Shown here: piece by piece, positions 8,324 through 31,928 of the stretch | How the letters are laid out: each line of letters opens with the position of its first letter | How positions within the stretch are numbered: the stretch's first letter is position 1 | DNA from: a bacterium | Lineage (GTDB): Bacteria > JAJVIF01 | Reading direction: 5' to 3' | DNA length: 64,000 nucleotides | Assembly (NCBI GenBank): GCA_022072165.1 | Contig: JAJVIF010000001.1 | Location: 1,302,001 to 1,366,000, forward strand | Notes under the pieces: generated by a model | Database searches by the model: none | Seen by the model: only the letters and a program-made list of their open reading frames with translations | What the model was told of the DNA's origin: nothing | Translations under genes and position numbers: made by a program

Positions 8324-9289
8324 ATGAGTCGGCGGGCAGACATCCTGAAAAAAATCACGCAGGTGCCACGCCTGCCGGTGGCCGCCATCGAAGCACTGAA
8401 AGCGCTGCAGGACCCCGACAACTCCGTGGATGCCGTGGTCCCGACGCTGGCTCATGATCCTGGACTGACCGCCGCGATTCTGCGAGTCGCGAACTCCGCG
8501 GCTTTTGCCGGGCAGCGGGAATGTACGGTCCTGCGGGATGGGTTGCTCCGCTTAGGGAATGAGCGGGTCCGTCAGGTGCTCGTCCGGGCGGGCCTCGGAC
8601 CGGGAGCGCAAAAACCACTTGTCGGCTATGGCCTCGCCCCAGGCGAACTCCTGGAGCATTCGATGCTGGTGGCACGGGGCGCGGTCGCGCTGGGGAAGCT
8701 CCTGGGGACCCCGGTTGCGCCGGCGGTCTTCACCGCCGGCCTCCTGCACAACATCGGCAAGATGGTGTTGGGGACCTGGATGGACGTGGATGGAGTGGCG
8801 ATTCGTCACCTGGCAGAAGCGGAGCGTCTGACGTTTGATGAAGCTGAGCGGATGGTGCTGGGGATCGATCACGCGGAGGTTGGGGCGGTGCTGCTGGAGT
8901 CCTGGGGGATCCCGGATGAGATCGTGACTGCCGTCCGGTGGCATCACCTGCCGGAGCGGGGTCCGGAGCCTCGACTGGCGGCCCGTCTGATCCATCTGGC
9001 GGACAGCGTCGTGATCCACGAGGGGGTCGGTGCAGGGGTCGACGGGGAGTTTTATCCCCCCTGCTCGGAGACCGTGGAAGCACTGCGATTTACGCCATCC
9101 GTGGCGCAGGAACTCGCACGGGATTTACGGGCGGATCGAAAGCGTCTTGGACGGATGTTCGGCTTTGCGACCCCGACTCAGACACAGGTCGAGGTCGTTG
9201 ATCCGGAAGAGGATGACAATGTGGCGACTGCCGAACGGGGTCCGGTCATGATGCAGCGACTGCTGGGCTTCATGTTCGCCCGGAAGTAG
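8324..9289 (+). CDS. HDOD-domain signalling protein
   Basis: HDOD domains are HD-superfamily output or regulatory modules in bacterial signalling, often without proven catalytic activity. The domain covers about residues 10-215, starting with the LPRLPVAAIEAL-like opening and including VANSAAF, the degenerate metal motif LLHNIGK (Asn where HD enzymes have Asp) and the later RWHHLPE. The Asn makes phosphodiesterase activity unlikely. The 321-residue protein has an acidic linker near residue 285 and a short basic C-terminus. The start has GGAGG seven bases upstream. It is convergent with ubiD, with five bases between the stop codons, so its position between ubiE/X and ubiD may be fortuitous. 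Confidence 0.85.
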   Translation: MSRRADILKKITQVPRLPVAAIEALKALQDPDNSVDAVVPTLAHDPGLTAAILRVANSAAFAGQRECTVLRDGLLRLGNERVRQVLVRAGLGPGAQKPLVGYGLAPGELLEHSMLVARGAVALGKLLGTPVAPAVFTAGLLHNIGKMVLGTWMDVDGVAIRHLAEAERLTFDEAERMVLGIDHAEVGAVLLESWGIPDEIVTAVRWHHLPERGPEPRLAARLIHLADSVVIHEGVGAGVDGEFYPPCSETVEALRFTPSVAQELARDLRADRKRLGRMFGFATPTQTQVEVVDPEEDDNVATAERGPVMMQRLLGFMFARK

Positions 9290-9294
9290 CGACT

Positions 9295-10875
9295 CTAGAG
9301 CCCCAGGTCCCGCAGCAACGCTTCCGCTTTGGCGCGGGCGGCGGGTGGCAGGGTCATTGGCGCGGGCCAGTCACGGACCACTCCCTCCCCTGGCCATTTG
9401 TTGGTGGCATCGATGCCCATTTTGGTCCCGAGGCCAAAGTACGGCGCGGCATGGTCGAGGACATCGAGGGGTCCCTCGATGATCATGGCGTCACGACCGG
9501 GAGAGGTATGTGCCCCAATGCGAAAGAGGACCTCGCTGATGTCCTGGACATCGCAGTCAGCGTCCACCACGACGATGTACTTCGAGAACATCATCTGCCC
9601 AAGTCCCCAGAGGCAGCTCATGACCTTTTTGGCGTGCCCGGGGTAGGCCTTCTTAATGCTGACGAAGACGAAGTTGTGGAACACCCCTTCCCAGGGGAGG
9701 TGCATATCGACGACTTCAGGCAACTGGACCCGCAGGAGCGGCAGGAAAATCCGCTCGGTGGCTTTGCCCAGCCAGCAGTCCTCCATGGGGGGCTTGCCCA
9801 CGACTGTACTGAGGTAGATGGGGTCTTTGCGCCGCATGATGCCAGTGACATGAAAGACCGGATAGGGCTCCGGCAGGGTGTAGTAGCCGGTGTGGTCGCC
9901 GAAGGGCCCTTCGATACGCTCTTCATCGAGACTTACATAGCCTTCCAGCACCATTTCGGCATGGGCTGGGACCTCGACATCGATCGTCGCGCACTTCACG
10001 AGCTCCACCGGCGACTTGCGAATGAAACCCGCCAGCAGGAGTTCATCGATGCCATTGGGGAGGGGCGCTGAGGCGGAGTAAATGGTGGCGGGGTCGCCGC
10101 CGATGACACAGGCGACCTCCATGCGATCTTTGCCCAGCTCGCGCAGGGAGCGGTATTGCTCCGCGCCTCCCTTGTGCCGATGCCAGTGCATCCCCGTCGT
10201 CTGACCATCGTAGACCTGCATCCGGTAGAGCCCGACATTGCGATGGCCGCTGGCCGGGTCGTGACTGTAGATGCCGCCGAACGTGATAAAGCGTCCGCCA
10301 TCTTCGGGCCAGCATTTCAGCACCGGCAGCCGCAGGAGGTCGGGCTTGGAGTCGATGACTTCTTTCACCGGCCCATCTTTGACAAGCTTGGGCGGGAACT
10401 GCGCCATCTGCGCCAGCTTCGGAAGCATCTTGAGCTTTTCGAGGAAACCTTTGGGCAGGTCGGGGACCAGCATTCCCTGGATCTCGGCAGCGATCTCGTT
10501 CATGTCGGTGGTGCCGAGCGCCCAGTTCATCCGGCGGGAGTTTCCAAAGGTGTTCATCAGCACCGGCATGTCGTAGCCCGGGACATTCTCAAAAAGGAGG
10601 GCTTTGCTCGCCTCCCCGCGCTTGTTCATCAGGTCGGTGATTGCCGTGATTTCCAGGTCGTTGGAAACTGGTGCTGTGATGCGGACCAGTTCTCCCTCGG
10701 CTTCCAGCAGCTTCAGGAAGTCCCGCAGATCTTTGTAGCGCAGATCGGTTTTGGTGGAGGGGGGAGTCGCGCCTCGCAGGGGCCGGAGGAGCCGGCCATC
10801 GACCTGTTCGGGAGCGGTCCCCTGGCCGGGAGTGAAGCGGTAGTCGGGCAGCGCTGGAGCAGTTGGAGCAGTCAT
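9295..10875 (-). CDS. ubiD: UbiD-family decarboxylase
   Basis: A prenyl-FMN-dependent decarboxylase predicted to act in menaquinone synthesis alongside UbiX and UbiE in this window. The 526-residue protein shows the family core: YKDLRDFLKLLE start of the domain, MQVYDGQTTGMHWHRHKG, the EGPFGDHTGYY active-site region with the conserved Glu and Asp, and the WLGKATERIF segment. A 45-residue N-terminal extension precedes the domain. TATACT lies six bases before the ATG and there is no Shine-Dalgarno site, so the mRNA is probably leaderless, which also supports this start. Other UbiD members act on different aromatic or unsaturated acids, so the substrate is inferred from context. Confidence 0.93.
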   Translation of the reverse strand: MTAPTAPALPDYRFTPGQGTAPEQVDGRLLRPLRGATPPSTKTDLRYKDLRDFLKLLEAEGELVRITAPVSNDLEITAITDLMNKRGEASKALLFENVPGYDMPVLMNTFGNSRRMNWALGTTDMNEIAAEIQGMLVPDLPKGFLEKLKMLPKLAQMAQFPPKLVKDGPVKEVIDSKPDLLRLPVLKCWPEDGGRFITFGGIYSHDPASGHRNVGLYRMQVYDGQTTGMHWHRHKGGAEQYRSLRELGKDRMEVACVIGGDPATIYSASAPLPNGIDELLLAGFIRKSPVELVKCATIDVEVPAHAEMVLEGYVSLDEERIEGPFGDHTGYYTLPEPYPVFHVTGIMRRKDPIYLSTVVGKPPMEDCWLGKATERIFLPLLRVQLPEVVDMHLPWEGVFHNFVFVSIKKAYPGHAKKVMSCLWGLGQMMFSKYIVVVDADCDVQDISEVLFRIGAHTSPGRDAMIIEGPLDVLDHAAPYFGLGTKMGIDATNKWPGEGVVRDWPAPMTLPPAARAKAEALLRDLGL

Positions 10876-10881
10876 GCCCCG

Positions 10882-10887
10882 AGTATA
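10882..10887 (-). promoter_or_regulatory. -10 box (TATACT) of leaderless ubiD
   Basis: TATACT on the minus strand ends six bases before the ubiD ATG at 10875. A transcript beginning at the usual distance from this box would start at the initiation codon. Confidence 0.6.
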
Positions 10888-10914
10888 TGGGCAGAGTCGC
10901 GCGGGGGTGACTGG

Positions 10915-12090
10915 CTAGCCGCCAGCTTTGAGCGCTGCGATGCCGGGAAGCTCGAGTCCGGCGAGGAGTTCGAGCGACGCGCCGCCGCCGGTCGAAAGAT
11001 GGGTGAAGCCATCGGCGACCCCCGCCTGATGGATCGCCGCAAGGCTGTCCCCGCCGCCTGCAACAGCGGTCGCATCACCATCAGCGATACGTCGCGCCAG
11101 TTCCAGGGTCCCTTCCGCGTACTGGGGATTCTCAAAGACACCCACTGGGCCGTTCCAGAAAATCGTCGTGGCTTCCGAGAGGATGTCGGAAAACTTTTCG
11201 ATCGTCTCAGGCCCGATGTCGAAGCCGGCGAGGGAATCCGGGATCTGGTCCGCCGGGTGGACGCCGACGGCGGGTTCTTTGAGGGAGGTCCCGCAGACTG
11301 CGTCATCTGGCAGGAAGATCAGCTTGCCCCGCATCTCACTCTCGTTCAGAAACGCCATGGCATCCTCGAGGGCATCGGCTTCGACCAGGCTCTTGCCGAC
11401 CGCCCCCCCCTCGGCCTTTATGAAAGTGAAAGCCATCGCTCCCCCGATGAGAAGCTGGTCTGCACGGATCAACAGATTGCGGAGAATCGGGAGCTTGTCT
11501 GAAACTTTGGATCCACCGACCAGCGCCACAAACGGGCGATCTTCCACGCCGAGGTTCAGCAGGCGCGAGAGCTGCTCAACTTCGTCGAAGAGCAGAAAGC
11601 CGGGGTATGAGGGCAGCAGATGGGCGATGCCGACAATCGACGCGGCGGGTCGATGGGCGGTGCCGAACGCATCATTGACATAGGCAGTGGCGAGTCGCGC
11701 CAGGAGCGCGGCGAAGGCGGGATCGTTCTTCTCTTCACCCGGATGAAAGCGGAGATTTTCGAGCAGGACGATCCCGCTCGCGGGAAAACCCTCGGCGAAC
11801 GGATCAGCATCCACATAATCGGTGATGAGGGGGACCTCACATCCCAGGAGAGTCGCGAGATGGGCGGCGACCGGGGCGAGGGATAGGGTCGGGTCCACCC
11901 CCTTGGGGCGTCCGAGATGACTGGCGAGGACGACCTGGCAGCCCTGGTCACGGAGGGCCCGGAGGGTCCGGAGCGAGGAGGTAATACGGGTGTCATCGGT
12001 GATGACCCCATCGCTGAGCGGGACGTTGAGGTCGGCGCGGAGGAAGACGCGCTGTCCGTGAAGGGCAAGGGTTGCAGGGTCGGTCCACAT
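10915..12090 (-). CDS. pgk: phosphoglycerate kinase
   Basis: The glycolytic enzyme that makes ATP from 1,3-bisphosphoglycerate. All signatures are present in 391 residues: RADLNVPL near the N-terminus, SHLGRPKG, the ENLRFHPGEEKND segment, VGGSKVSDK, the nucleotide-binding WNGPVGVFE and the final GGGDSLAA and STGGGASLE motifs. It is the last gene of a minus-strand run gap, a small unknown gene and pgk, giving the two consecutive glycolytic steps together. A TACGCT lies ten bases before the ATG, so an internal promoter is possible. Length and motifs indicate a functional enzyme. Confidence 0.96.
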   Translation of the reverse strand: MWTDPATLALHGQRVFLRADLNVPLSDGVITDDTRITSSLRTLRALRDQGCQVVLASHLGRPKGVDPTLSLAPVAAHLATLLGCEVPLITDYVDADPFAEGFPASGIVLLENLRFHPGEEKNDPAFAALLARLATAYVNDAFGTAHRPAASIVGIAHLLPSYPGFLLFDEVEQLSRLLNLGVEDRPFVALVGGSKVSDKLPILRNLLIRADQLLIGGAMAFTFIKAEGGAVGKSLVEADALEDAMAFLNESEMRGKLIFLPDDAVCGTSLKEPAVGVHPADQIPDSLAGFDIGPETIEKFSDILSEATTIFWNGPVGVFENPQYAEGTLELARRIADGDATAVAGGGDSLAAIHQAGVADGFTHLSTGGGASLELLAGLELPGIAALKAGG

Positions 12091-12195
12091 GGCGTGGGGG
12101 AGCGTAGCAGATTGCAGTCAGGACCGGGTCAAGAGATTAGAGATTCATGTCGTAATGGACGACGGTGCTGGCGTGGCAGTCCAGCGGAGGGAGCG

Positions 12196-12576
12196 CTATT
12201 CCGGCATCAGGGGGATGGCGGCCGCCTGCGTAAGCGCCACCACATGCTCCAGCACCGCAATCAACGGCGACCGATCCTGCCCTTTCCATTGCCGCGTGCA
12301 ATACCCCGCGATTTCTGGACCCGGCAGGAAGCCTCGCTCGGCATCATCCACCAGCAGCATCACAGGCTCCATGGCGCTGTCGAGCGACTTCATCCAGGTC
12401 AGGAGCGCCGGGGGCCGACCCTCCGGGTCATACCGAAACACCATCCCCTGCTCCAGCCCACGGACATGCAGGCTGAAGCCCCGGGAAGGGCCGACTTCCC
12501 CTTCGTTGCCGGGTCGGACTTCCAGGTCGTGCGCGACCGCGAACGCCAGACCCCATTCGGTGAGTGTCAGGGTCAT
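12196..12576 (-). CDS. small unknown protein between gap and pgk
   Basis: A predicted 126-residue soluble protein with no signal peptide, membrane segment or motif I recognise. It starts five bases after the gap stop codon and ends 105 bases before pgk, so it is probably co-transcribed with these glycolytic genes. The ATG at 12576 is the first in frame outside the gap gene and has no convincing Shine-Dalgarno sequence, so it may depend on coupling to gap translation. The order gap, unknown, pgk is not a standard arrangement. A possible link to glycolysis is suggested by position only. Confidence 0.6.
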   Translation of the reverse strand: MTLTLTEWGLAFAVAHDLEVRPGNEGEVGPSRGFSLHVRGLEQGMVFRYDPEGRPPALLTWMKSLDSAMEPVMLLVDDAERGFLPGPEIAGYCTRQWKGQDRSPLIAVLEHVVALTQAAAIPLMPE

Positions 12577-18830: not shown

Positions 18831-21800
18831 ATGACCCTCCTTCGGGGCTCCGCTTGCGGGGCCTGCATCCTACTGTTCGCTCTGTTGCTGCTGGCCCCGG
18901 CCAAGGGAGCGAGTGCGCCATTGCCTGCGCCTCCCGCCGACCTCGCCGCCCGATTTGCGCCGGTCGTGCCGTATCTCGCGCCGCTGTATGGCCCCTGCGC
19001 GACCAGGGTCCTGCAGGTCCGTGAGGACCGCCTCTATCTGGAAGAAGTGCCGGGAGTTCAGCCAGGGGATCTCTTCGCGATTTATCCGCCGGGGACCATT
19101 CTGCTGGGACCGCAAGCCACGCAGCCCCGACCCGACGCTCTCACAACAATCCGGGTGATGAGAACTACTGAAGGTGTCGTGGAGGCCCTTTTTGATGGGG
19201 ATCCGACAGCAGTGCCGACCTTCGCGCCCGCGCTGCGGGTACTGACAGGTCGTGCTCTGGCGGTGGTCTGGACACCCCCGCCCGCCGAACTCGCGCCGCT
19301 GGTCGAACACTGGCGACTCACACATCATCTCTATGACCAGTTACTGGCGACTGTCCCGATTCCCCTCACTTCGCAGTCGCCGCCGGATGCTCTGCCAGAT
19401 CAGGTGCCATCGCACCCTGCGCTGGTGCAACTCCCTGCCACCGAACAACTCCTGGTGACTCCGGAGGCTGGCGGATTGCTGCTGCGCTGGTCATCGGCCT
19501 ATGTCGACTCGCAGCCGCCGCTGCGACTCGCTCTGCCCCTGCGCGATGTCCGCCTGACACCCCTCTACGATGCGTTGCCCGGCTCCTCCTGGGCCGGGGA
19601 GTCCCTGCAAGGGGCGGTTTCCTATCGGCTTCCGACACCGATCTGCGACTGCACCGACTCCGCGCCTTCAGCTCCAGATGACAGCTTCTGGTGTCTGACC
19701 CCGGTGAGCCTGATCCGGCTCCGCCTGGAACATGCGCGGCTGTCGGTGACCGGGCACTGGCCGCTCGACCTGCCCCAGGAACCACCGTATGGAAGGCAAG
19801 GAGCGGGTCTGCTTCGCTGGGTGCCTTCCAGAGAGGGCGACCTCCTCCTGGTGCATCGTGGCCAGGGCGGTGCCGGGCAACTCTGGCGCTGGACCGGTTC
19901 GACTGTGCGGTGGGAACGGGAATTCGAAGGGATTCCGCTCCCGGCGCCTCACGGCATGGATACAGTCAGCACAGCGCAGGATGGAAGCGGTGCTGGTCGC
20001 TTTCATCGGCCTGCCGCGTATGCGACAGCCCTCCTGTCGCCGTTGCGGGGAGTGGTAGCGGATGCGTCGGTGCAGGTTGGGGTTGATGGCACCGGCACGT
20101 TGCGACTGACCCAACCTGATGGCACGCGCGCTGAAACCAGAGCGGGGGGCTTTAGCGGTCCCGTGCTGCTGACTTCCACGATGCTGTATGCCGCGACCGG
20201 TCAGGCCGTGATGCGATATCCCCGGAATGCCGAGGGACGTCCACAGGATGCAGGACAACGGTCGGTGCAGCTGCCAGGCTGGCCAGTGGCCCTCTGGCAG
20301 GCGAACGACATGCTTTGGGCGCTGGTGACACGACCTGGCGGAGATCAGCTCCTCGTGCAGGTGCCACAGGAGGGATGGTCGGCTCCCGGCAGGTCCTCCC
20401 AGGCATCGGGGTGGCCGACTCCTGGAGGGGTCGGGCGGCTGGGACTCGCGACTGATCGACTTGATCTGACACCCGAAGGAGCGCTGACCCCGGATGAGCG
20501 CCGTCTGACAAGCGCGCTCTACGACACTCCGGCGCAGTTGTTGCCGGATGGCAAGACCTGGCCCCTCGCAGCCGTACAGATCAGTCGCAATTCAGCAGGA
20601 GATGTGTGGGAACTCGAGTTGCAGAAGGGACTCCGCTGGCCCGATGGCAGCGCTGTCACTGCAGAGGCGCTCCGGGCAGGCTGGGAACGGACAGCTCGCG
20701 CCCATCCGCTGGGAGCGCCGGCGATGAGCCTGCTGGTGGGGTACCGGGAGTTTCGTCAGGGACCTGCCACCGGCATTTCGGGTATCGATGTCATCGACAG
20801 TTCCCGTCTTCGTTTGCGTCTTACTCAACCGGAGCTGCGATTCGACAGCTATCTGGCGGACCCGGTCTTCGCGCTGGTGCGGGGCGACCGGAAGGTCCTG
20901 CAGGGTGGGGGCGTCTCGGTGTCGTATCGCCAGGGAACCGGCCCATTCCAGCCCGTCCGACTCCAGGAGCAGACCCTGGAACTGGCCCGCCAGCCAGGAC
21001 ACAGTGCGGGGCTCCCGCCACTCACACAATGGCGCATCGATTTACTCAGTCGCCAGGAGGCGGTCCATCGCACCTATCTGGCGGGTCGTCTGGATGTCGC
21101 CAGTGTCCCCGCTGGCGAGTGGTCCACTTTTGCAGTCCGCCAGGACATGGCGCGGCAACAGTTGAGCTTCGTCAGTTCGGCGACCCTGGGGCTGCTGGTG
21201 AATCCTGCCAGTCCCCGGTGGAGTCGTGACCTGCCAACACGTCAGGGCTTGCTGGCTTCTCCGAATCTGGAAGCCTTGCGTGAAGTGACCCTGGGTGGCC
21301 TGGTCGCACCGGCGCGGGGGCACTTTGCCGATCGCCTGGGGCTCCCTGCGGCTCAGGCTGCCCGGGCAGCGGCGGTGACTCCCGGCCCCCTGCGAGTATT
21401 GGTCCCGTCTCATCATCCTGATCTCTACGCGGCGGGAGTACGTATCCGAACCGAACTGGAAAGCAAGGATTCCCGGTGGCAGGTGCATCTGGTGCAACTG
21501 CCAGTGCGCGACCTGCTGACTCGTCGGCCAGACTGGGACCTGGCGCTTTGGGAATTCGGCGGACTGCCACAGCCCGTGCTGACAGAAGCGCTGGAGTTCA
21601 GAGCGCTCTGGACTCAGTGGGGGGGAGCGGTGAGTCCGGGGACCCCCGCGTATGGGCTGGAAGCCGAGCTGCTGCGTCAGGGCTGGTGGCGTCCGTTGGG
21701 GCACCCGCGGCAGTTATGGCTCAGAGATCCGGCGCTGCGGGGCTGGCTCGGACCGCAGCAGGCGCAGCCTGGCTGGGCTGCCGCCTGGTGGGAGCGCTAA
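18831..21800 (+). CDS. secreted propeller-like protein fused to a peptide-type solute-binding domain
   Basis: A 989-residue exported protein. A signal peptide covers about residues 1-28 (ACILLFALLLLAP core, cleavage near KGASA). Residues 30-180 form an unassigned domain resembling the FlgT C-terminal type. About 200-540 contain repeated Trp/Gly-rich blades that look like a beta-propeller. About 545-980 match family 5 solute-binding proteins of peptide transporters, with the KGLRWPDGSAVTAEALRAGW and GTGPFQP hallmarks. No ABC permease or ATPase is nearby. The histidine kinase gene begins five bases after its stop, so I infer that it senses a ligand or envelope state for the kinase. The domain boundaries are estimates from reading the translation. 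Confidence 0.72.
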   Translation: MTLLRGSACGACILLFALLLLAPAKGASAPLPAPPADLAARFAPVVPYLAPLYGPCATRVLQVREDRLYLEEVPGVQPGDLFAIYPPGTILLGPQATQPRPDALTTIRVMRTTEGVVEALFDGDPTAVPTFAPALRVLTGRALAVVWTPPPAELAPLVEHWRLTHHLYDQLLATVPIPLTSQSPPDALPDQVPSHPALVQLPATEQLLVTPEAGGLLLRWSSAYVDSQPPLRLALPLRDVRLTPLYDALPGSSWAGESLQGAVSYRLPTPICDCTDSAPSAPDDSFWCLTPVSLIRLRLEHARLSVTGHWPLDLPQEPPYGRQGAGLLRWVPSREGDLLLVHRGQGGAGQLWRWTGSTVRWEREFEGIPLPAPHGMDTVSTAQDGSGAGRFHRPAAYATALLSPLRGVVADASVQVGVDGTGTLRLTQPDGTRAETRAGGFSGPVLLTSTMLYAATGQAVMRYPRNAEGRPQDAGQRSVQLPGWPVALWQANDMLWALVTRPGGDQLLVQVPQEGWSAPGRSSQASGWPTPGGVGRLGLATDRLDLTPEGALTPDERRLTSALYDTPAQLLPDGKTWPLAAVQISRNSAGDVWELELQKGLRWPDGSAVTAEALRAGWERTARAHPLGAPAMSLLVGYREFRQGPATGISGIDVIDSSRLRLRLTQPELRFDSYLADPVFALVRGDRKVLQGGGVSVSYRQGTGPFQPVRLQEQTLELARQPGHSAGLPPLTQWRIDLLSRQEAVHRTYLAGRLDVASVPAGEWSTFAVRQDMARQQLSFVSSATLGLLVNPASPRWSRDLPTRQGLLASPNLEALREVTLGGLVAPARGHFADRLGLPAAQAARAAAVTPGPLRVLVPSHHPDLYAAGVRIRTELESKDSRWQVHLVQLPVRDLLTRRPDWDLALWEFGGLPQPVLTEALEFRALWTQWGGAVSPGTPAYGLEAELLRQGWWRPLGHPRQLWLRDPALRGWLGPQQAQPGWAAAWWER

Positions 21801-21805
21801 ACACC

Positions 21806-23827
21806 ATGTGGTCCTGGTTGCCCCCGACATGGAGGATCCCGATCTGGGTGAAGTTCACCGGCGCGTTCGGCGTGCTGGTGATGCTGTTTCTCTACATCCC
21901 ACTGGAAAGTCTGAATCGGATCAACCGACTCATTGGTGAGCAACAGGAACTGCAGTTGCAGGAGAGTGCAGGCGCGTTTGCCCGGCTCCTGGGGGAGCAG
22001 GCCCGGGGCATCGAAGCGAGCGTCCAGGGTGTCACGATGACGCGCTCTGTAGAACGGAACTGGAGTGCCTGGCGAGAAGCGATTGATGAGAGTTTCGCGG
22101 GGAGCAATCAGCTGGAACTTCAGAAGGCCATAGTCGAAAGCCAGATTGTGTCGGTCCTGGATTACCTGGCGCTGGTGGGGCCGCAGGGAGATCTGTACCT
22201 CGCCCATGGGGGTGCGGAAACGTACAACACACCGATCCCGTCCGGGTCCCTCCTGCGACAACTCTCCTTGTCGACCTACGCCCCAGAACAGGCGCAACGC
22301 CCGCGTCCCTCCTGGACCTGGGGGCTGGAGCACCATCCCCCATCGTCACCAGAAGGAAGCGGCCCTTTTCTCATGGTGGGGGGCCCGGTCTATCTGCCGG
22401 ATCTGACAGGACAGCGCTGGCGCTACGCCGGCTGCATTGTTGGTGGGCGTCGGCTGGTTGCGACTTCGTTGGGAAGCATGGTAGCGAGTTCCGAAGGGGA
22501 GCCCATGCAAGTGCTGCTGGGGCATCAGGATGGGAGTCTGATCTGGAGCACGCTGTCGCCGACTGCCGATCCGGACCGCCTCCTTGCTGATTTTCGCGCC
22601 CAGGACATGCTCCAGCCGACGATCAGACCGTATTGGTCGTCCGTGGGTGGCACGACCCATCTCGTGAGCGTCGTGGACCTGGGGGGAATTCCGGAGCAGG
22701 CACCGCAGTGGAAGGCTGGGGCACCGCTCCTCATTGCGATGCAGCCGGAAAATCGGTCTTCGATGCTGCTGAGCGACTTTCGGGAAGGGGTCACCTCACT
22801 CGCCATCGGGATCATTCTGTCGTCCTTTCTTCTCTCACCACTGTTGGCACTGCAGTTGTCGCGGCCAATGACCACGTTGACAGCGGCTGTGGAGCGCTAC
22901 GCCCGGGGCGAACAGGAGATCCCGCAAATCCCGGTGCCGCCAACCCGGGATGAGCTGGAGTCGCTGGGGCAGGCATTCAATGCCATGGTGGTGCAGCGCC
23001 AGGAAGCGGATGCCCGTCGTATCCGGGCGGAGAAGCTGGCGGTCTGGCGTGACATCGCGCAAAAGCTCGCCCACGAGATCAAGAATCCGCTGCAGCCGAT
23101 CCGGCTGCACATTGAATTGCTGGCGCGCATCGCGAAGCGAAATCCGGATGCGGTCGCCGCTCAGGTCCCAGAGGCCGCCGAACTCATCCTGATTGAAGTT
23201 GAGCGGCTCAAGCATCTGGCCGATGATTTCAGCAACTTCGCCCGGATGCCGCTGCCAATGCTCGCCCCCTGCCCGGTCGAACCGCTCCTGTGCCATGCCA
23301 TAGAACTGATGCAGCCCCAGTGGCCAGGCATTCCCATGACACTTGAGCCGGTCCCCAACCTGCCCCCCTATGCCCTGGATGCCGAAAAGCTGTCGCAGGT
23401 CCTGGTTAATCTGCTGAAAAATGCCGCAGAGGCCCTGCAGGACGGTGCAAGTGGAGAGCCGGGCATCGTGCTGCGGGTGGAGGAGCAACCGGACGGCGGG
23501 CTGGTGCTGTCGGTGACGGACACTGGTCCGGGGATTTCCGAAGAGGCACAGCCGCGACTCTTCACCATGTACTACACGACCAAGGAAGAGGGCTCGGGTC
23601 TGGGGCTCGCGATGGTGCAGCAAATCATGCTGGAGCATGGCGGCCAGGCAACCGTGGAGTCGGCCGTGGGGGTCGGCACCACCTTCCGGCTCTATTTTCC
23701 AGCATCGCTTCGCTTGACCCCCCAGGCATTGGGACCCGAAAATGCACCGCCCCCGGACGAGCCGGGGGCGGATGAGAGTGCAGTGCCGAACAAAGCGGCT
23801 AGCGGCTCGGATATCCCGGGAATGTGA
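21806..23827 (+). CDS. NtrY-like sensor histidine kinase
   Basis: A 673-residue membrane kinase. It has a first membrane helix at about residues 14-33, an extracytoplasmic sensor region of about 300 residues, a second helix near 333-355, a HAMP linker, the phospho-acceptor HisKA motif LAHEIKNPLQPIRLH, and an ATPase with N box NLLKNAAEAL, DTGPGIS and GSGLGLA. The kinase core resembles NtrY/AtoS-type enzymes. The reading frame is open upstream inside the previous gene, but the ATG at 21806 directly precedes the first helix. No response regulator lies next to it. The final 28 bases overlap the end of the convergent lipoprotein gene, whose hairpin terminator is inside this coding sequence. Confidence 0.92.
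   Translation: MWSWLPPTWRIPIWVKFTGAFGVLVMLFLYIPLESLNRINRLIGEQQELQLQESAGAFARLLGEQARGIEASVQGVTMTRSVERNWSAWREAIDESFAGSNQLELQKAIVESQIVSVLDYLALVGPQGDLYLAHGGAETYNTPIPSGSLLRQLSLSTYAPEQAQRPRPSWTWGLEHHPPSSPEGSGPFLMVGGPVYLPDLTGQRWRYAGCIVGGRRLVATSLGSMVASSEGEPMQVLLGHQDGSLIWSTLSPTADPDRLLADFRAQDMLQPTIRPYWSSVGGTTHLVSVVDLGGIPEQAPQWKAGAPLLIAMQPENRSSMLLSDFREGVTSLAIGIILSSFLLSPLLALQLSRPMTTLTAAVERYARGEQEIPQIPVPPTRDELESLGQAFNAMVVQRQEADARRIRAEKLAVWRDIAQKLAHEIKNPLQPIRLHIELLARIAKRNPDAVAAQVPEAAELILIEVERLKHLADDFSNFARMPLPMLAPCPVEPLLCHAIELMQPQWPGIPMTLEPVPNLPPYALDAEKLSQVLVNLLKNAAEALQDGASGEPGIVLRVEEQPDGGLVLSVTDTGPGISEEAQPRLFTMYYTTKEEGSGLGLAMVQQIMLEHGGQATVESAVGVGTTFRLYFPASLRLTPQALGPENAPPPDEPGADESAVPNKAASGSDIPGM
23747..23771 (-). 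terminator. hairpin terminator of the lipoprotein gene, inside the kinase coding region
   Basis: A perfect 10-base inverted repeat of CCGCCCCCGG with a 5-base loop. Read on the minus strand it is 28 bases past the lipoprotein stop and is followed by GCATTTTC, as in an intrinsic terminator. It encodes part of the Pro-rich C-terminal tail of the kinase on the plus strand. Confidence 0.55.
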
Positions 23828-24758
23828 AGCGATTCTCGCCGTCCCGCCCGATGATGTACGGATCTTCCACCGCCACGACACCGTAGGTGTTGTTCCAGAC
23901 AAGGCGGAGCGTAAAGCCACTTTCCGGATCGGTGATGGCGAAGGTGGTGTAGTCCTTGCCAAAGATGGTTTCAACAGATTCCGTCTGGACCACCCAGTAA
24001 GCCGACATCCCACCGAAGCTGTCGGTCCCCTGCGTCCCACTCCGCTCACCCTCGATGGGGGCGTAGCTGTTCGTGGTGAGGCGGAGGCCATCGTGGAACA
24101 CCAGCACCCGATTGATGTTGCCAGCCGGGCCCTTGTGCTGCATCACGATCATGTTGATCAGGGCGCATGTGGACTTGCTGTAGTTCCAGTTGAGGGTGAT
24201 CTCGGTGCTGTACGGGATCTGTTTTTCGTTGTACTCCCAGGTTCCCTCTGCGGAGAAGGTGAACTGACCGCCATTGGGGAGAACTGCGGTCTTGCCGAGC
24301 CAGGAGCCTGCCTCGATGGTGAGAGGCACCGCGCCGTAGGTCGGGTGCTCGATGTCAAACGTCCGATTCACGTTGTTGGCGTTGGCGTTGGTCTTGTTGA
24401 ACTTCAGGACATAGTCCGTCGCGTTCTTCGGGACGAACACCACACGACCATCGCAGTTCCGCTTGACACCAGAGATTTCCTTGTCACCGGTGCCAGAAAC
24501 ATCGGGATCGCCGGTCAGGCCGGAGTCGGGGGTGGGGGTCGGCGGGGTGCCGCCACCCAGCTGCAGGGTGTTGTCGGAGTCGTCTGAAGCTCCGGGGGGC
24601 ACGGCATCAGGAGTCTGATAACCGGGGTTAAAGACATCATCGGCGGGAGCCAGTTCAGGGGTGACATGGCCGACGGGACCGTTATGCCCCGAGTTACAAC
24701 CCCAGGCAATCAGGGCAGTCAGACTCAGGGTCAGGGCGATAAGCGACATGCGCTTCAT
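23799..24758 (-). CDS. lipoprotein of unknown function
   Basis: A 319-residue lipoprotein with a lipobox ending LIAWGC (Cys at about 21). A Pro/Thr/Asp-rich linker (about 30-95) follows and then a beta-rich domain with many aromatic and Asn residues. No enzymatic motif is recognised. The ATG at 24758 has GGAGG eight bases upstream and starts the signal peptide; a frame-open upstream start would add 16 residues without improving it. The domain may be an envelope adhesion or stabilising module, but that is only a guess. The 3' end overlaps the kinase gene by 29 bases, and the transcript ends in a hairpin within that gene. Confidence 0.8.
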   Translation of the reverse strand: MKRMSLIALTLSLTALIAWGCNSGHNGPVGHVTPELAPADDVFNPGYQTPDAVPPGASDDSDNTLQLGGGTPPTPTPDSGLTGDPDVSGTGDKEISGVKRNCDGRVVFVPKNATDYVLKFNKTNANANNVNRTFDIEHPTYGAVPLTIEAGSWLGKTAVLPNGGQFTFSAEGTWEYNEKQIPYSTEITLNWNYSKSTCALINMIVMQHKGPAGNINRVLVFHDGLRLTTNSYAPIEGERSGTQGTDSFGGMSAYWVVQTESVETIFGKDYTTFAITDPESGFTLRLVWNNTYGVVAVEDPYIIGRDGENRFTFPGYPSR

Positions 24759-24918
24759 GTAAGGGCCTCCAGGAACGGGTACAGGTGCTGTGCAGTCCGT
24801 CAACAATGTCCGGCGGGGGTGAACATTGGGCTTAGCCTCTTTATGGCCGATTTGGGGTGACTTAATCAGGCCGGGGATGCCGCGCCGCTGACGTCCCTCC
24901 GCGCAGCAGGCTGACGGG

Positions 24919-27857: not shown

Positions 27858-27923
27858 CTGACTTATGCCAGGGCCGCCAAAGGCCGGGGTGCTGAACGCT
27901 CGTCGGATTGGAGGGGCAACGTG

Positions 27924-30900
27924 ATGGACCGGACAGCACCGGAGGATGCCGGACAAAGCGGTTGGGTGGCCGTGTCACGACTGGACACGTCGGTGCAGCA
28001 TCAGTTGTTACTCGCCCTGGTGGAGCAATCTTTCGACGCCTGCTTTGTCCTCGATGGCGCCGGAGAGATTTTGGCGGTGAATCAGGCGGGTGGGTTGCTT
28101 TGCGGAATTGAACCTGCATCGATGCTGGGAAAGCCCCTCACTCAATTCCTGAGTCTGGCTGATGCTGTAGCCGCCCGGACACTGAATGACCTGTTGCAGG
28201 GAACTGGCGTCCTCACACTCTCCCGACGAGTCACACTCCGTTCAGGCCTGGATCGCGCCCTGGATCTCCAGGTGCAGCGAGTCCTCCCCGACTTCACGCT
28301 CCTGACCGTGCGTGACAAGTCCATGATCCGGGCGCTGACCGCGACGCAACTTGCCGAGGAGACGAGATTCCGGCTCCTGATCGATGGACTCCCGGAGATG
28401 GTCTGTCGCTTTTTGCCGGACCACACAGTGGTGTATGTCAATCCGGCGTTCTGCAGCTTCTTCAATAAGTCTGCCGCCGAGCTGGAAGGCCAGATCTATA
28501 ACCCCCTGGTAATGCCTGAAGACCTGCCGGAAGTCGAGGCACGATTGAGCCGGATCTCTGCCGAGCATCCGCAGGCGACTACGGTCAGCCGTGTGGTGCG
28601 CCGGGATGGGAGCTGGCGCTGGACCGAGTGGACTACCCATGGACTGTTTAATGCCCAGGGCGAACTGACAGAACTGATCTCGCTGGGACGGGACATCCAT
28701 GAACGTCGGCTGCAGGAAGAGTCCCTTCGCGAGAACGAAGAGCGGCTGCGACTGGCCGCACAGGCGACCCGGGACTACATCTGGGACTGGAATCTGCTGA
28801 CCAATGAGCTCACCTTTGGCGAATCCATGCGGCTCGTGGCACCCGGCGGCTGGCCTCCTCCGGCGGAAGCGTTCGCCTGGTGGAGTGAACGGATCCACCC
28901 TGAGGATCGGGACCGGGTCACCCACAGCCTGGAAGCTGCCATCCGGGCAGACGAGAACTGGACGGATTCTTATCGCTTCATGCGTGATGACGGCTCCTGG
29001 GTGGAAGTGGTGGATCGCGGGCATCTGGTGCGGAATGAGCGGGGCGAAGTGATCCGGATGGTGGGATCCATGCTCGACCTCTCCGAGCATCGGAAGATCG
29101 AAGAACAACTCGAACGGACCACGGAAAAGCTGCAATTCATGCTGAAGAGTTCCCAGGAAGGACTCTGGGAATACGACTTTCGAACGGGCGAAGTCTTCCG
29201 CAATCGCGCGGTCTGGGAAATGTTGGGGATGTCCCCCCAGGAAGAATCGACCTCCGGCGACTACTGGATTGAACGGACCCATCCGCAGGATGTCGCGCTC
29301 CTCTATGAGTCCTGGGAAACAACCCTCAAAGCGGGACGTCCTACCTGGTCCTGCAACTACCGCCTGCGCCACAGCGATGGACACTATCTGCACATCGCTG
29401 ACCAGGGTTTCTTCATCTATGGCGCTGATGGATCTCCCCTGCGTGCCTTCGGCTCCATGACCGACCGGACCGAGCAGCATCGGGCCGAAGAGGAGCTCCG
29501 TAAACGCGAAGCGACCCTGGCGCTGGCTCAGACCATCGCACACCTGGGGAGCTGGGAGTGGGACCTGATCACCGGGACGCAGGTCTGGTCGGAGGAGACC
29601 TTTCACATCTTTGGTTACGATCCCGAAACCACCACTCCTTCCCGGGCAACCTTCTTTGCTGCAGTTCATCCTGAAGATGCCGAGATGGTCCGCGTTGCGT
29701 TTGCCCAGGCCCTGGAGGGCGGCAAGCCATTCGATGTCGTGCATCGTGTGGTCCACTCCAACGGAGCCATTCGCTGGGCCAACGAGCAGTGCGAGATCAT
29801 TCGTGACCCCGGAGGCGCGCCGATCATGATTCAGGGCACGACTCTGGATGTCACAGAACGGGTCCGGGCCAGCGAAGAAATCCGGGAGCGGGAAGAACGC
29901 TTCCGGCTCCTGGCGGACAGTTCCCCGGCACTGATTTATCTCGATGATGCCGAGGGAAAGCGGGAGTATGTGAATGTCCGCTGGCTGGAAGCCACCGGCA
30001 GCAGCCAGACTGCATTACTGGGGCTTGGCTGGCTCGACCGGGTCCACCAGGATGACATCGGCAACGTCATGGAGCGCTACCAGCAGTCGTTGCGGCAGCC
30101 TGAGCAGTACCAGATGGACTATCGACTGCGGTTTGCGGATGGGTCATGGCACTGGCTGCTGGACAGCGGCGCTCCCCGGTACGGCGGTGATGGCCGCTTC
30201 CTTGGGTTCATCGGCTCCTGCCTGGACATCACCGGCCGCAAAGTGACCGAGGACATGCAGCGACTTCTCTCACGACTGGGGGGTGTACTCACCGGGAGTC
30301 CGGATGTCGAGTCATCGCTGATACGCCTGGTTCAGCAGTGTGTCCCGGAATTGTGCGATCTCTGTCTGCTCGATTACCAGACCGATGACCCCGCTGTTGA
30401 AGCGAAGGAACTGCGACGTCTCGCGCTGGCACATCAGGACTTTAGTCTGCGTCAGCAGCTCATGGATCTGCTCCCAGCGACTGCGGCTGACTATCTGGTG
30501 TCCGGAGGCCTGGCGTGGGTATCTGCAACAAAGCAGACCCTGATGATTGAAAACAGTCTGACACCGGACAGTGCACTGAACCTCGCGCCCCTGGAACCAC
30601 GACTACAGGAACTTACGGATGGTCACTCCGGGCTCCTGGTCCCCCTGATCCTGCGGGGGGAGGTCCGTGGCGTGCTGACACTCATTAACACGTCGGAGCG
30701 GGGTACGTTGCATCCCACGATTCGCGACACCGCAGAAGAGATTGCACGTCGGACCGCGTTGGCGGTGGACAATGCGCGGCTGTATCACGCCCTGCAGCTG
30801 GCAGATCAGCGCAAGGAGGCGTTCCTCGCGACCCTGGCGCATGAGCTAAGGAATCCGTCAGCAGCGATCCTGAGTGCCGCACAGTTGCTGAGGATTCCCG

Positions 30901-31928
30901 AATCCGACGACGCAATGCGGGAGTATGCGGTTGAGCTGATAGAGCGTCAGGGCGAGCATATCGGGCGACTACTGGAAGACCTGATGGATGTTTCGCGTAT
31001 CAATGAGGGAAAGGTGAAGCTTCGACTGGAGGTGCTCGATCTGCGGACCGTGGTAACCCATGCCGAAAAAGCGCACCGACTGGCGATCGAAGATCGTGGT
31101 CACGAGTTGCAGGTGTTGCTGCCTGCAGATCCTGTCTGGATTCAGGGGGATGCGACACGCCTGGAGCAGATCGTCAGTAACCTGCTCAACAATGCCGCCA
31201 AATACACACCGGGACATGGGCACATCACGCTCGAACTGACCATCGAGTTGCAATCTGCCGAAGCGCTTTTCAGCGTGACCGATGACGGCATGGGCCTGGA
31301 ACCGCATCTGGTGCCGCATCTGTTTGAAATGTTCTTTCAGGCTGAACGCGGGCTGGCCCGCAGCAAGGGTGGCTTGGGCATTGGTCTGACACTGGTGCGG
31401 ATGCTGGTCGAGCTACACGGCGGAGCGGTGACTGCCGCGAGCCCTGGGCCGGGACTGGGCAGCACTTTTACGATTCGTCTTCCCCTCTCCGGAGCTCCCA
31501 CGGAGACTGCGACACCACCTGATTCCGACAGAGTCACAGACCTGCCGATGGAGGTGGTGGTCGTTGATGACAACGTGGATGTCGGCCAGACCATGTCACG
31601 GCTGATCGCGTTCCAGGGACACCGCGTCACGACACTGAGCGACAGCACCCTGGCCGAAGCCGCCATTGCTGAAGTCTCGCCGGACCTGGTGCTGCTGGAC
31701 ATCGGGATGCCGGGGCTCGATGGCTACACGCTGGCTCGTCGGTTGCAATCACTTTCCTGCCGTCGGGGAATGCTGCTGGTGGCACTGACTGGTTATGGTC
31801 AGGAAGAAGATGAGCGACTGGCCCAGGAAGCAGGCTTTGACCTGCACCGGACCAAGCCCCTGGATCGCCGGGAGCTCGGGCTCCTGCTGGCGACGGCACA
31901 GGCGCGTCGCGCACAACGGGAAGCCTGA
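27924..31928 (+). CDS. six-PAS hybrid sensor histidine kinase with receiver domain
   Basis: A large soluble-looking kinase of 1334 residues. Six PAS domains in series (about residues 30-130, 150-270, 280-400, 400-525, 530-650, 655-775) precede a GAF-like domain (about 780-945). Then come HisKA with LAHELRNPSAAIL, an ATPase with NLLNNAAKYT, DDGMGLE and GLGIGLT, and a C-terminal receiver with the VVVVDDNVD opening and phospho-acceptor Asp in LVLLDIGMPG. Neither signal peptide nor membrane helix is seen, so it should read cytoplasmic signals. The ATG at 27924 is seven bases from GGAGGGG; a GTG three bases upstream is the alternative. No output regulator is next to it. Domain limits were read by eye from PAC-like repeats. 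Confidence 0.92.
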   Translation: MDRTAPEDAGQSGWVAVSRLDTSVQHQLLLALVEQSFDACFVLDGAGEILAVNQAGGLLCGIEPASMLGKPLTQFLSLADAVAARTLNDLLQGTGVLTLSRRVTLRSGLDRALDLQVQRVLPDFTLLTVRDKSMIRALTATQLAEETRFRLLIDGLPEMVCRFLPDHTVVYVNPAFCSFFNKSAAELEGQIYNPLVMPEDLPEVEARLSRISAEHPQATTVSRVVRRDGSWRWTEWTTHGLFNAQGELTELISLGRDIHERRLQEESLRENEERLRLAAQATRDYIWDWNLLTNELTFGESMRLVAPGGWPPPAEAFAWWSERIHPEDRDRVTHSLEAAIRADENWTDSYRFMRDDGSWVEVVDRGHLVRNERGEVIRMVGSMLDLSEHRKIEEQLERTTEKLQFMLKSSQEGLWEYDFRTGEVFRNRAVWEMLGMSPQEESTSGDYWIERTHPQDVALLYESWETTLKAGRPTWSCNYRLRHSDGHYLHIADQGFFIYGADGSPLRAFGSMTDRTEQHRAEEELRKREATLALAQTIAHLGSWEWDLITGTQVWSEETFHIFGYDPETTTPSRATFFAAVHPEDAEMVRVAFAQALEGGKPFDVVHRVVHSNGAIRWANEQCEIIRDPGGAPIMIQGTTLDVTERVRASEEIREREERFRLLADSSPALIYLDDAEGKREYVNVRWLEATGSSQTALLGLGWLDRVHQDDIGNVMERYQQSLRQPEQYQMDYRLRFADGSWHWLLDSGAPRYGGDGRFLGFIGSCLDITGRKVTEDMQRLLSRLGGVLTGSPDVESSLIRLVQQCVPELCDLCLLDYQTDDPAVEAKELRRLALAHQDFSLRQQLMDLLPATAADYLVSGGLAWVSATKQTLMIENSLTPDSALNLAPLEPRLQELTDGHSGLLVPLILRGEVRGVLTLINTSERGTLHPTIRDTAEEIARRTALAVDNARLYHALQLADQRKEAFLATLAHELRNPSAAILSAAQLLRIPESDDAMREYAVELIERQGEHIGRLLEDLMDVSRINEGKVKLRLEVLDLRTVVTHAEKAHRLAIEDRGHELQVLLPADPVWIQGDATRLEQIVSNLLNNAAKYTPGHGHITLELTIELQSAEALFSVTDDGMGLEPHLVPHLFEMFFQAERGLARSKGGLGIGLTLVRMLVELHGGAVTAASPGPGLGSTFTIRLPLSGAPTETATPPDSDRVTDLPMEVVVVDDNVDVGQTMSRLIAFQGHRVTTLSDSTLAEAAIAEVSPDLVLLDIGMPGLDGYTLARRLQSLSCRRGMLLVALTGYGQEEDERLAQEAGFDLHRTKPLDRRELGLLLATAQARRAQREA

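Follow-up and report, generated by a model that had tools for sequence, protein, structure and literature searches.

Several bacterial signalling proteins are activated by a separate solute-binding protein (SBP). In LuxP-LuxQ, TorT-TorS, ChvE-VirA and DppA-Tap, a periplasmic binding protein docks on the extracytoplasmic domain of the signalling protein, and one of these binding proteins, DppA, is a member of SBP family 5. We know of no SBP-activated receptor that joins a FlgT_C-like or propeller-like part to a family 5 domain, or that uses an NtrY-type kinase. SBP-activated receptors have been described as a general class; the genes are neighbours in 10 of 11 characterised SBP-kinase couples, and the kinases AgtS and AruS showed no binding with the SBPs encoded beside them (PMC11113362). 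A proven three-component SBP-kinase system is CuaD-CuaSR of Ruminiclostridium cellulolyticum, in which the SBP gene adjoins the kinase gene and CuaD binds the kinase and serves sensing (PMC10384115).

The gene pair described here lies in a 64,000-nucleotide stretch of bacterial DNA, termed the window, and shares with CuaD-CuaSR the adjacency of SBP and kinase genes. CuaD binds sugar, with a high affinity for cellobiose, and the gene for its regulator is adjacent, whereas the window set has a family 5 domain with a short C-lobe, an apparently fused N-terminal half, an NtrY-type kinase and, probably, an unlinked regulator. The window pair would dock in the manner known from LuxP-LuxQ and its counterparts. 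The closest kinase core and the closest regulator are those of NtrY-NtrX (e.g. PMC7240162; L097), but the window kinase has no PAS domain, two rather than several N-terminal helices, an SBP co-gene, and no adjacent regulator. The C-terminal half of the first protein belongs to the same family as OppA and DppA (SBP_bac_5) and differs from them in its shortened C-lobe and in the absence of both a DYPDP motif and a permease partner. No paper joining FG-GAP repeats with solute-binding proteins and sensor kinases was found. The preliminary description knew of no characterised system with this domain order; since couples of neighbouring SBP and kinase genes have been described before (PMC11113362, PMC10384115), only the domain combination is new.

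The coordinates of the features are given in Table 1. Both open reading frames are intact, and exactly 5 bases separate them, which makes co-translation of the two proteins likely. The gene positions, the spacing, and the succession of a secreted protein and a two-helix kinase are all as originally described. Upstream of the pair lies a divergent uvrA gene, which the set does not adjoin in relatives. Downstream, the neighbour of the kinase gene is not ntrX but a convergent lipoprotein-like open reading frame (23799-24806, - strand) that overlaps the end of the kinase gene by 29 bases. Reading of the open reading frames from 12 to 32 kb of the window found no ABC permease-like frame and no stand-alone response regulator, which bears out the reported absence of both. 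A search of the window for sigma-54-type promoters yielded none above chance. Farther downstream (27921-31928, + strand) the window encodes a hybrid histidine kinase of 1335 aa, rich in PAS-like segments and with a receiver domain at its C-terminus.

Table 1. Features of the gene pair, in window coordinates
Feature	Position	Strand	Basis
989-aa secreted protein: signal peptide, FlgT_C-like motif, beta-rich (possibly propeller-like) middle, SBP_5-like C-terminal half	18831..21800	+	ORF, Pfam, hydropathy
Sec-type signal peptide, about aa 1-28, without lipobox	18831..18914	+	Hydropathy and direct sequence reading
FlgT_C-like domain, about aa 51-143, motif RVLQVREDRLYLEEVPGVQPGDLFAIY	18981..19259	+	Alignment with gene A of G003/G001; marginal
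Middle region, putative propeller, about aa 144-516	19260..20378	+	Beta-rich; FG-GAP repeats, below threshold, in gene A of the sister family
SBP family 5-like domain, about aa 525-989, C-lobe shortened, without DYPDP segment	20403..21797	+	Pfam, alignment, gene B profile
NtrY-like sensor histidine kinase, 673 aa from ATG 21806	21806..23827	+	HAMP, HisKA, HATPase_c; tree
Kinase extracytoplasmic region, about 300 aa (aa 33-330), Cache-like at most	21902..22795	+	Between hydrophobic segments
Kinase core: HAMP, DHp with HEIKNP (His423), CA domain	22841..23704	+	Pfam, motif reading

The first protein is secreted or periplasmic, because its sole hydrophobic segment (aa 3-21 by hydropathy) is N-terminal and fits a Sec signal peptide. 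Its N-terminal half has no Pfam match, no PDB match, and no relative in 385 genomes by plain protein search. The motif near its start is one that we take, from general knowledge of the motif, to be FlgT_C-like; in a PDB profile search the best match of this domain was TsaP, at a non-significant E=0.23. AlphaFold runs without an alignment gave unusable models (pLDDT 35 and 43 in two runs), so that both the propeller and the Cache fold of the kinase stay putative. In the window protein itself the propeller-like blades of the preliminary description were not confirmed, although the corresponding sister gene has FG-GAP matches below threshold (see below); the family 5 domain placed beside them was confirmed.

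This domain matches SBP_bac_5 (PF00496) at aa 586-833 with E=3.1e-16 and 59.9 bits against a cut-off of 32.4, a match that spans only profile positions 12-248 of 368. Checking the assignment with a profile therefore confirms the family. It does not favour the word "peptide-binding", which had been attached to it. In OppA, the aspartate of the ADYNEP segment anchors the amino group of the peptide. The corresponding C-lobe segment, DYPDP, is kept by most of 16 transporter-type relatives in the alignment, but the window protein lacks it together with the stretch around it, and it is likewise absent from the related B proteins of all three other genomes of the class (see below). Among the other SBP_5 proteins of the window genome, three in number, two clearly keep DYPDP; a strict text pattern missed it in the third. 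Because the segment is absent, ordinary peptide binding by this domain is doubtful, and a different ligand is possible. No permease-like gene was found near the SBP_5-type gene at the window locus (12-32 kb), L144, L145 or L148.

SBP_bac_5-like domains were also seen in two other fusions. One open reading frame (L051, about 8748-12389, + strand; G031:C68, also L008) encodes transmembrane segments, a HAMP/MCP-like region and then a full SBP_bac_5-like domain, apparently a chemoreceptor-SBP_5 fusion with the SBP domain on the cytoplasmic side, in a 9-Mb genome. In the other (L050, 7868-10573, - strand; G027), a 901-aa frame, an SBP_bac_5-like domain is apparently fused to an ABC permease.

Hydrophobic segments at aa 13-31 and 331-349 of the kinase, its only two, enclose roughly 300 residues that lie outside. 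C-terminal of the second helix are HAMP, HisKA and HATPase_c domains with the H, N, G1 and G2 motifs all intact, and Pfam found no PAS domain between HAMP and HisKA. The nearest named core is NtrY of L097 (Desulfuromonadales), at 38% identity, where ntrX directly follows ntrY. In a tree that took in the G002 and G003 orthologs and left out that of G001, the window kinase and these orthologs form a clade (support 92/81), which joins the NtrYs with weaker support (83/62). The description of an NtrY-like kinase with an extracytoplasmic region of about 300 residues is therefore sound. The region itself had no relatives at E<=0.001 in 385 genomes by protein search, and PDB profile searches with it and with gene A (below) were empty or gave chance matches. 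Its similarity to the ortholog ectodomains is weak (1-4 of 1000 shuffles as good), and dCache_1 was matched in the G002 ortholog only, at E=0.008 and 16 bits against a cut-off of 45.

The window genome was compared with three others of its class (G001, G002 and G003), of which G001 and G003 belong to one sister family. A plain search with the 989-aa protein gave, at E<=0.001, no relatives beyond general SBPs. Short peptide patterns, which detect close relatives only, found none among 84,980 species with one genome each. The idea that the pair is an orphan of one genome was rejected when a search with the kinase core found an ortholog, 40-44% identical in the core, in each of these three genomes. 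In G003 (L144) and G001 (L145) the gene order is A-B-kinase, with a one-base overlap of A and B (TGATG) in both and a gap of 2 to 16 bases between B and the kinase. Gene A (523 aa in G003, 496 aa in G001) has a FlgT_C-like start and FG-GAP-like repeats at its end, the latter as sub-threshold Pfam matches (E=1.5e-4 to 0.002). Gene B of G003 encodes 514 aa and is SBP_5-like: its Pfam match (E=3.9e-5) falls short of the curated cut-off, and hhalign gave E=3.8e-11 in a comparison with a set of SBPs to which the window protein belonged. When the B proteins of G003 and G002 were combined in a profile, the window SBP half scored 28.6 bits, and none of 1000 shuffles exceeded 0.2. Relative to G003, the B gene of G001 is divided between two frames (L145, 7400-7620), which may reflect a disrupted gene or an assembly error.

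In G002 the kinase gene is solitary, beside a transposase-like open reading frame, and a B-type SBP gene without a nearby permease lies on a different contig. A kinase and a B homolog are thus present in each of the four genomes, and an SBP gene adjoins the kinase gene in the window, G003 and G001, but not in G002. Conservation of the pair, which the preliminary description had left to be checked, holds for the SBP_5-like gene and kinase in the sister family; in G002 both genes are present but lie apart. Judged by sequence, the homology of the window protein is solid in the B part and marginal in the A part, as it is in the kinase ectodomain. The window set looks like a three-module unit, encoded by three genes in relatives, the first two of which seem to be fused in the window. 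The link between SBP_5-like gene and kinase in the proposed two-protein device stands, but in relatives the set has three genes.

The window genome has several NtrC-type regulators. One of them, an NtrX-like protein at G000:C2:430 kb (L042), is encoded on another contig than the window and without an adjacent kinase, as are its orthologs in G002 and G003. Its best NCBIfam match is NF051870 (NtrX), at 392.7 bits and below the 600-bit cut-off, with only the part after an assembly gap scored; it is 48% identical to the L097 NtrX. The gap is a run of ten Ns within the receiver domain (L042, 6054-6063), where the frame is uncertain. This regulator is the best candidate partner of the window kinase. 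The earlier statement that no response regulator is nearby is correct, but a partner most likely exists elsewhere in the genome. Set against this output step are further orphan NtrC-type regulators (C1:1662 kb and C2:169 kb) and a second kinase that lacks a regulator nearby (C3:326 kb). The four best-matched sigma-54 activator domains of the window genome (L042, L043, L044 and L045) have GAFTDA rather than GAFTGA, and the NtrX-like orthologs in G002 and G003 have GAFTGA.

A two-protein sensing device is the best reading of the window pair, because the SBP_bac_5 match is significant and the SBP_5-like gene and the kinase are conserved in the sister family. Since that family has the set in the form of three adjoining genes, the pair is probably a dedicated sensing device rather than a stray transporter fragment. 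We put the probability at about 0.6 that the locus encodes a dedicated sensory complex of a non-transport SBP co-receptor, an NtrY-like kinase and an unlinked NtrX-like regulator. The secreted protein would act as a co-receptor in the periplasm and would no longer serve transport. Its SBP_5-like domain, aided by the FlgT_C-like and beta-rich half, would bind the extracytoplasmic domain of the kinase and set kinase activity by ligand or envelope state, and the kinase would then phosphorylate the sigma-54-type NtrX-like regulator. An envelope signal is at most a fair guess, made because NtrYX is described as regulating the cell envelope in one studied bacterium (PMC7240162). The passage of ligand state from binding protein to kinase that was first suggested remains the preferred course of events, with peptide a doubtful ligand. 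Points against the co-receptor reading are that the comparison covers four genomes of the class, with the unfused set in one family (G001 and G003), that the G002 kinase and B homolog lie on different contigs, that similarity is marginal in the N-terminal half and weak in the kinase ectodomain, and that some neighbouring SBP and kinase genes, such as those of AgtS and AruS, are not linked in function (PMC11113362).

The same observation also favours an arrangement in which a Cache-like ectodomain lets the kinase sense a ligand of its own. The SBP/propeller protein would then be no input but an envelope factor under common regulation, for example a structural or feedback component. NtrY relatives work without an SBP, as in L097-L099, where ntrX follows ntrY and no SBP gene stands beside them; the G002 kinase stands alone, and its ectodomain is the one with the weak dCache_1 match. 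The tight A-B-kinase order in G001 and G003, the SBP gene directly upstream of the window kinase, and the presence of kinase and B homolog in all four genomes make this arrangement unlikely. Still less probable is that the SBP_5 half binds solute on behalf of an Opp-type transporter encoded elsewhere, with its place beside the kinase incidental or regulatory only. SBP_bac_5 is a transport family, and at least two other SBP_5 genes of the window genome adjoin permease-like genes, as read from their translations. However, all B-type domains share the shortened C-lobe without DYPDP, a fused N-terminal half of 500 residues would be unusual for a transporter SBP, and no permease was seen near the window locus, L144, L145 or L148.

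A separate matter, which concerns the fusion only and is compatible with the co-receptor explanation, is whether gene A is the counterpart of the window N-terminal half. The window protein is likely a fusion of A and B, because the order of the genes, their lengths and the place of a single small domain agree: the N-terminal half is similar in length (about 510 aa) to gene A, and the FlgT_C-like motif lies near the N-terminus in both. The FlgT_C-like stretch matched the gene A profile better than 998 of 1000 shuffles (2 were as good). Residues 150-540 show no similarity signal to the remainder of gene A (340 of 1000 shuffles score no lower, and the pairwise Z is about 0), as would be expected if an unrelated part had been gained and only the SBP_5-kinase pair were ancestral. 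Given the agreement in order, length and motif, we consider such a gain rather unlikely, and fusion of A and B remains the preferred account.

The occurrence of A and B as two genes in one family and as one apparently fused gene in another suggests that they work together. We suggest, tentatively, that the set may represent an undescribed class of co-receptor, in which a family 5 SBP without transport role or peptide anchor, together with a FlgT_C-like/propeller scaffold, feeds an NtrY-type kinase, the modules being inherited together and fused or split by lineage. To our knowledge, the signal sensed by NtrY-type kinases has not been established in general. In a lineage where a dedicated periplasmic binding protein accompanies an NtrY-like kinase, the input of such a kinase becomes directly testable, and the likely fused or split gene pair adds evidence for a physical complex. 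If the co-receptor reading is true, a family 5 binding protein would have been converted from transport to signalling.
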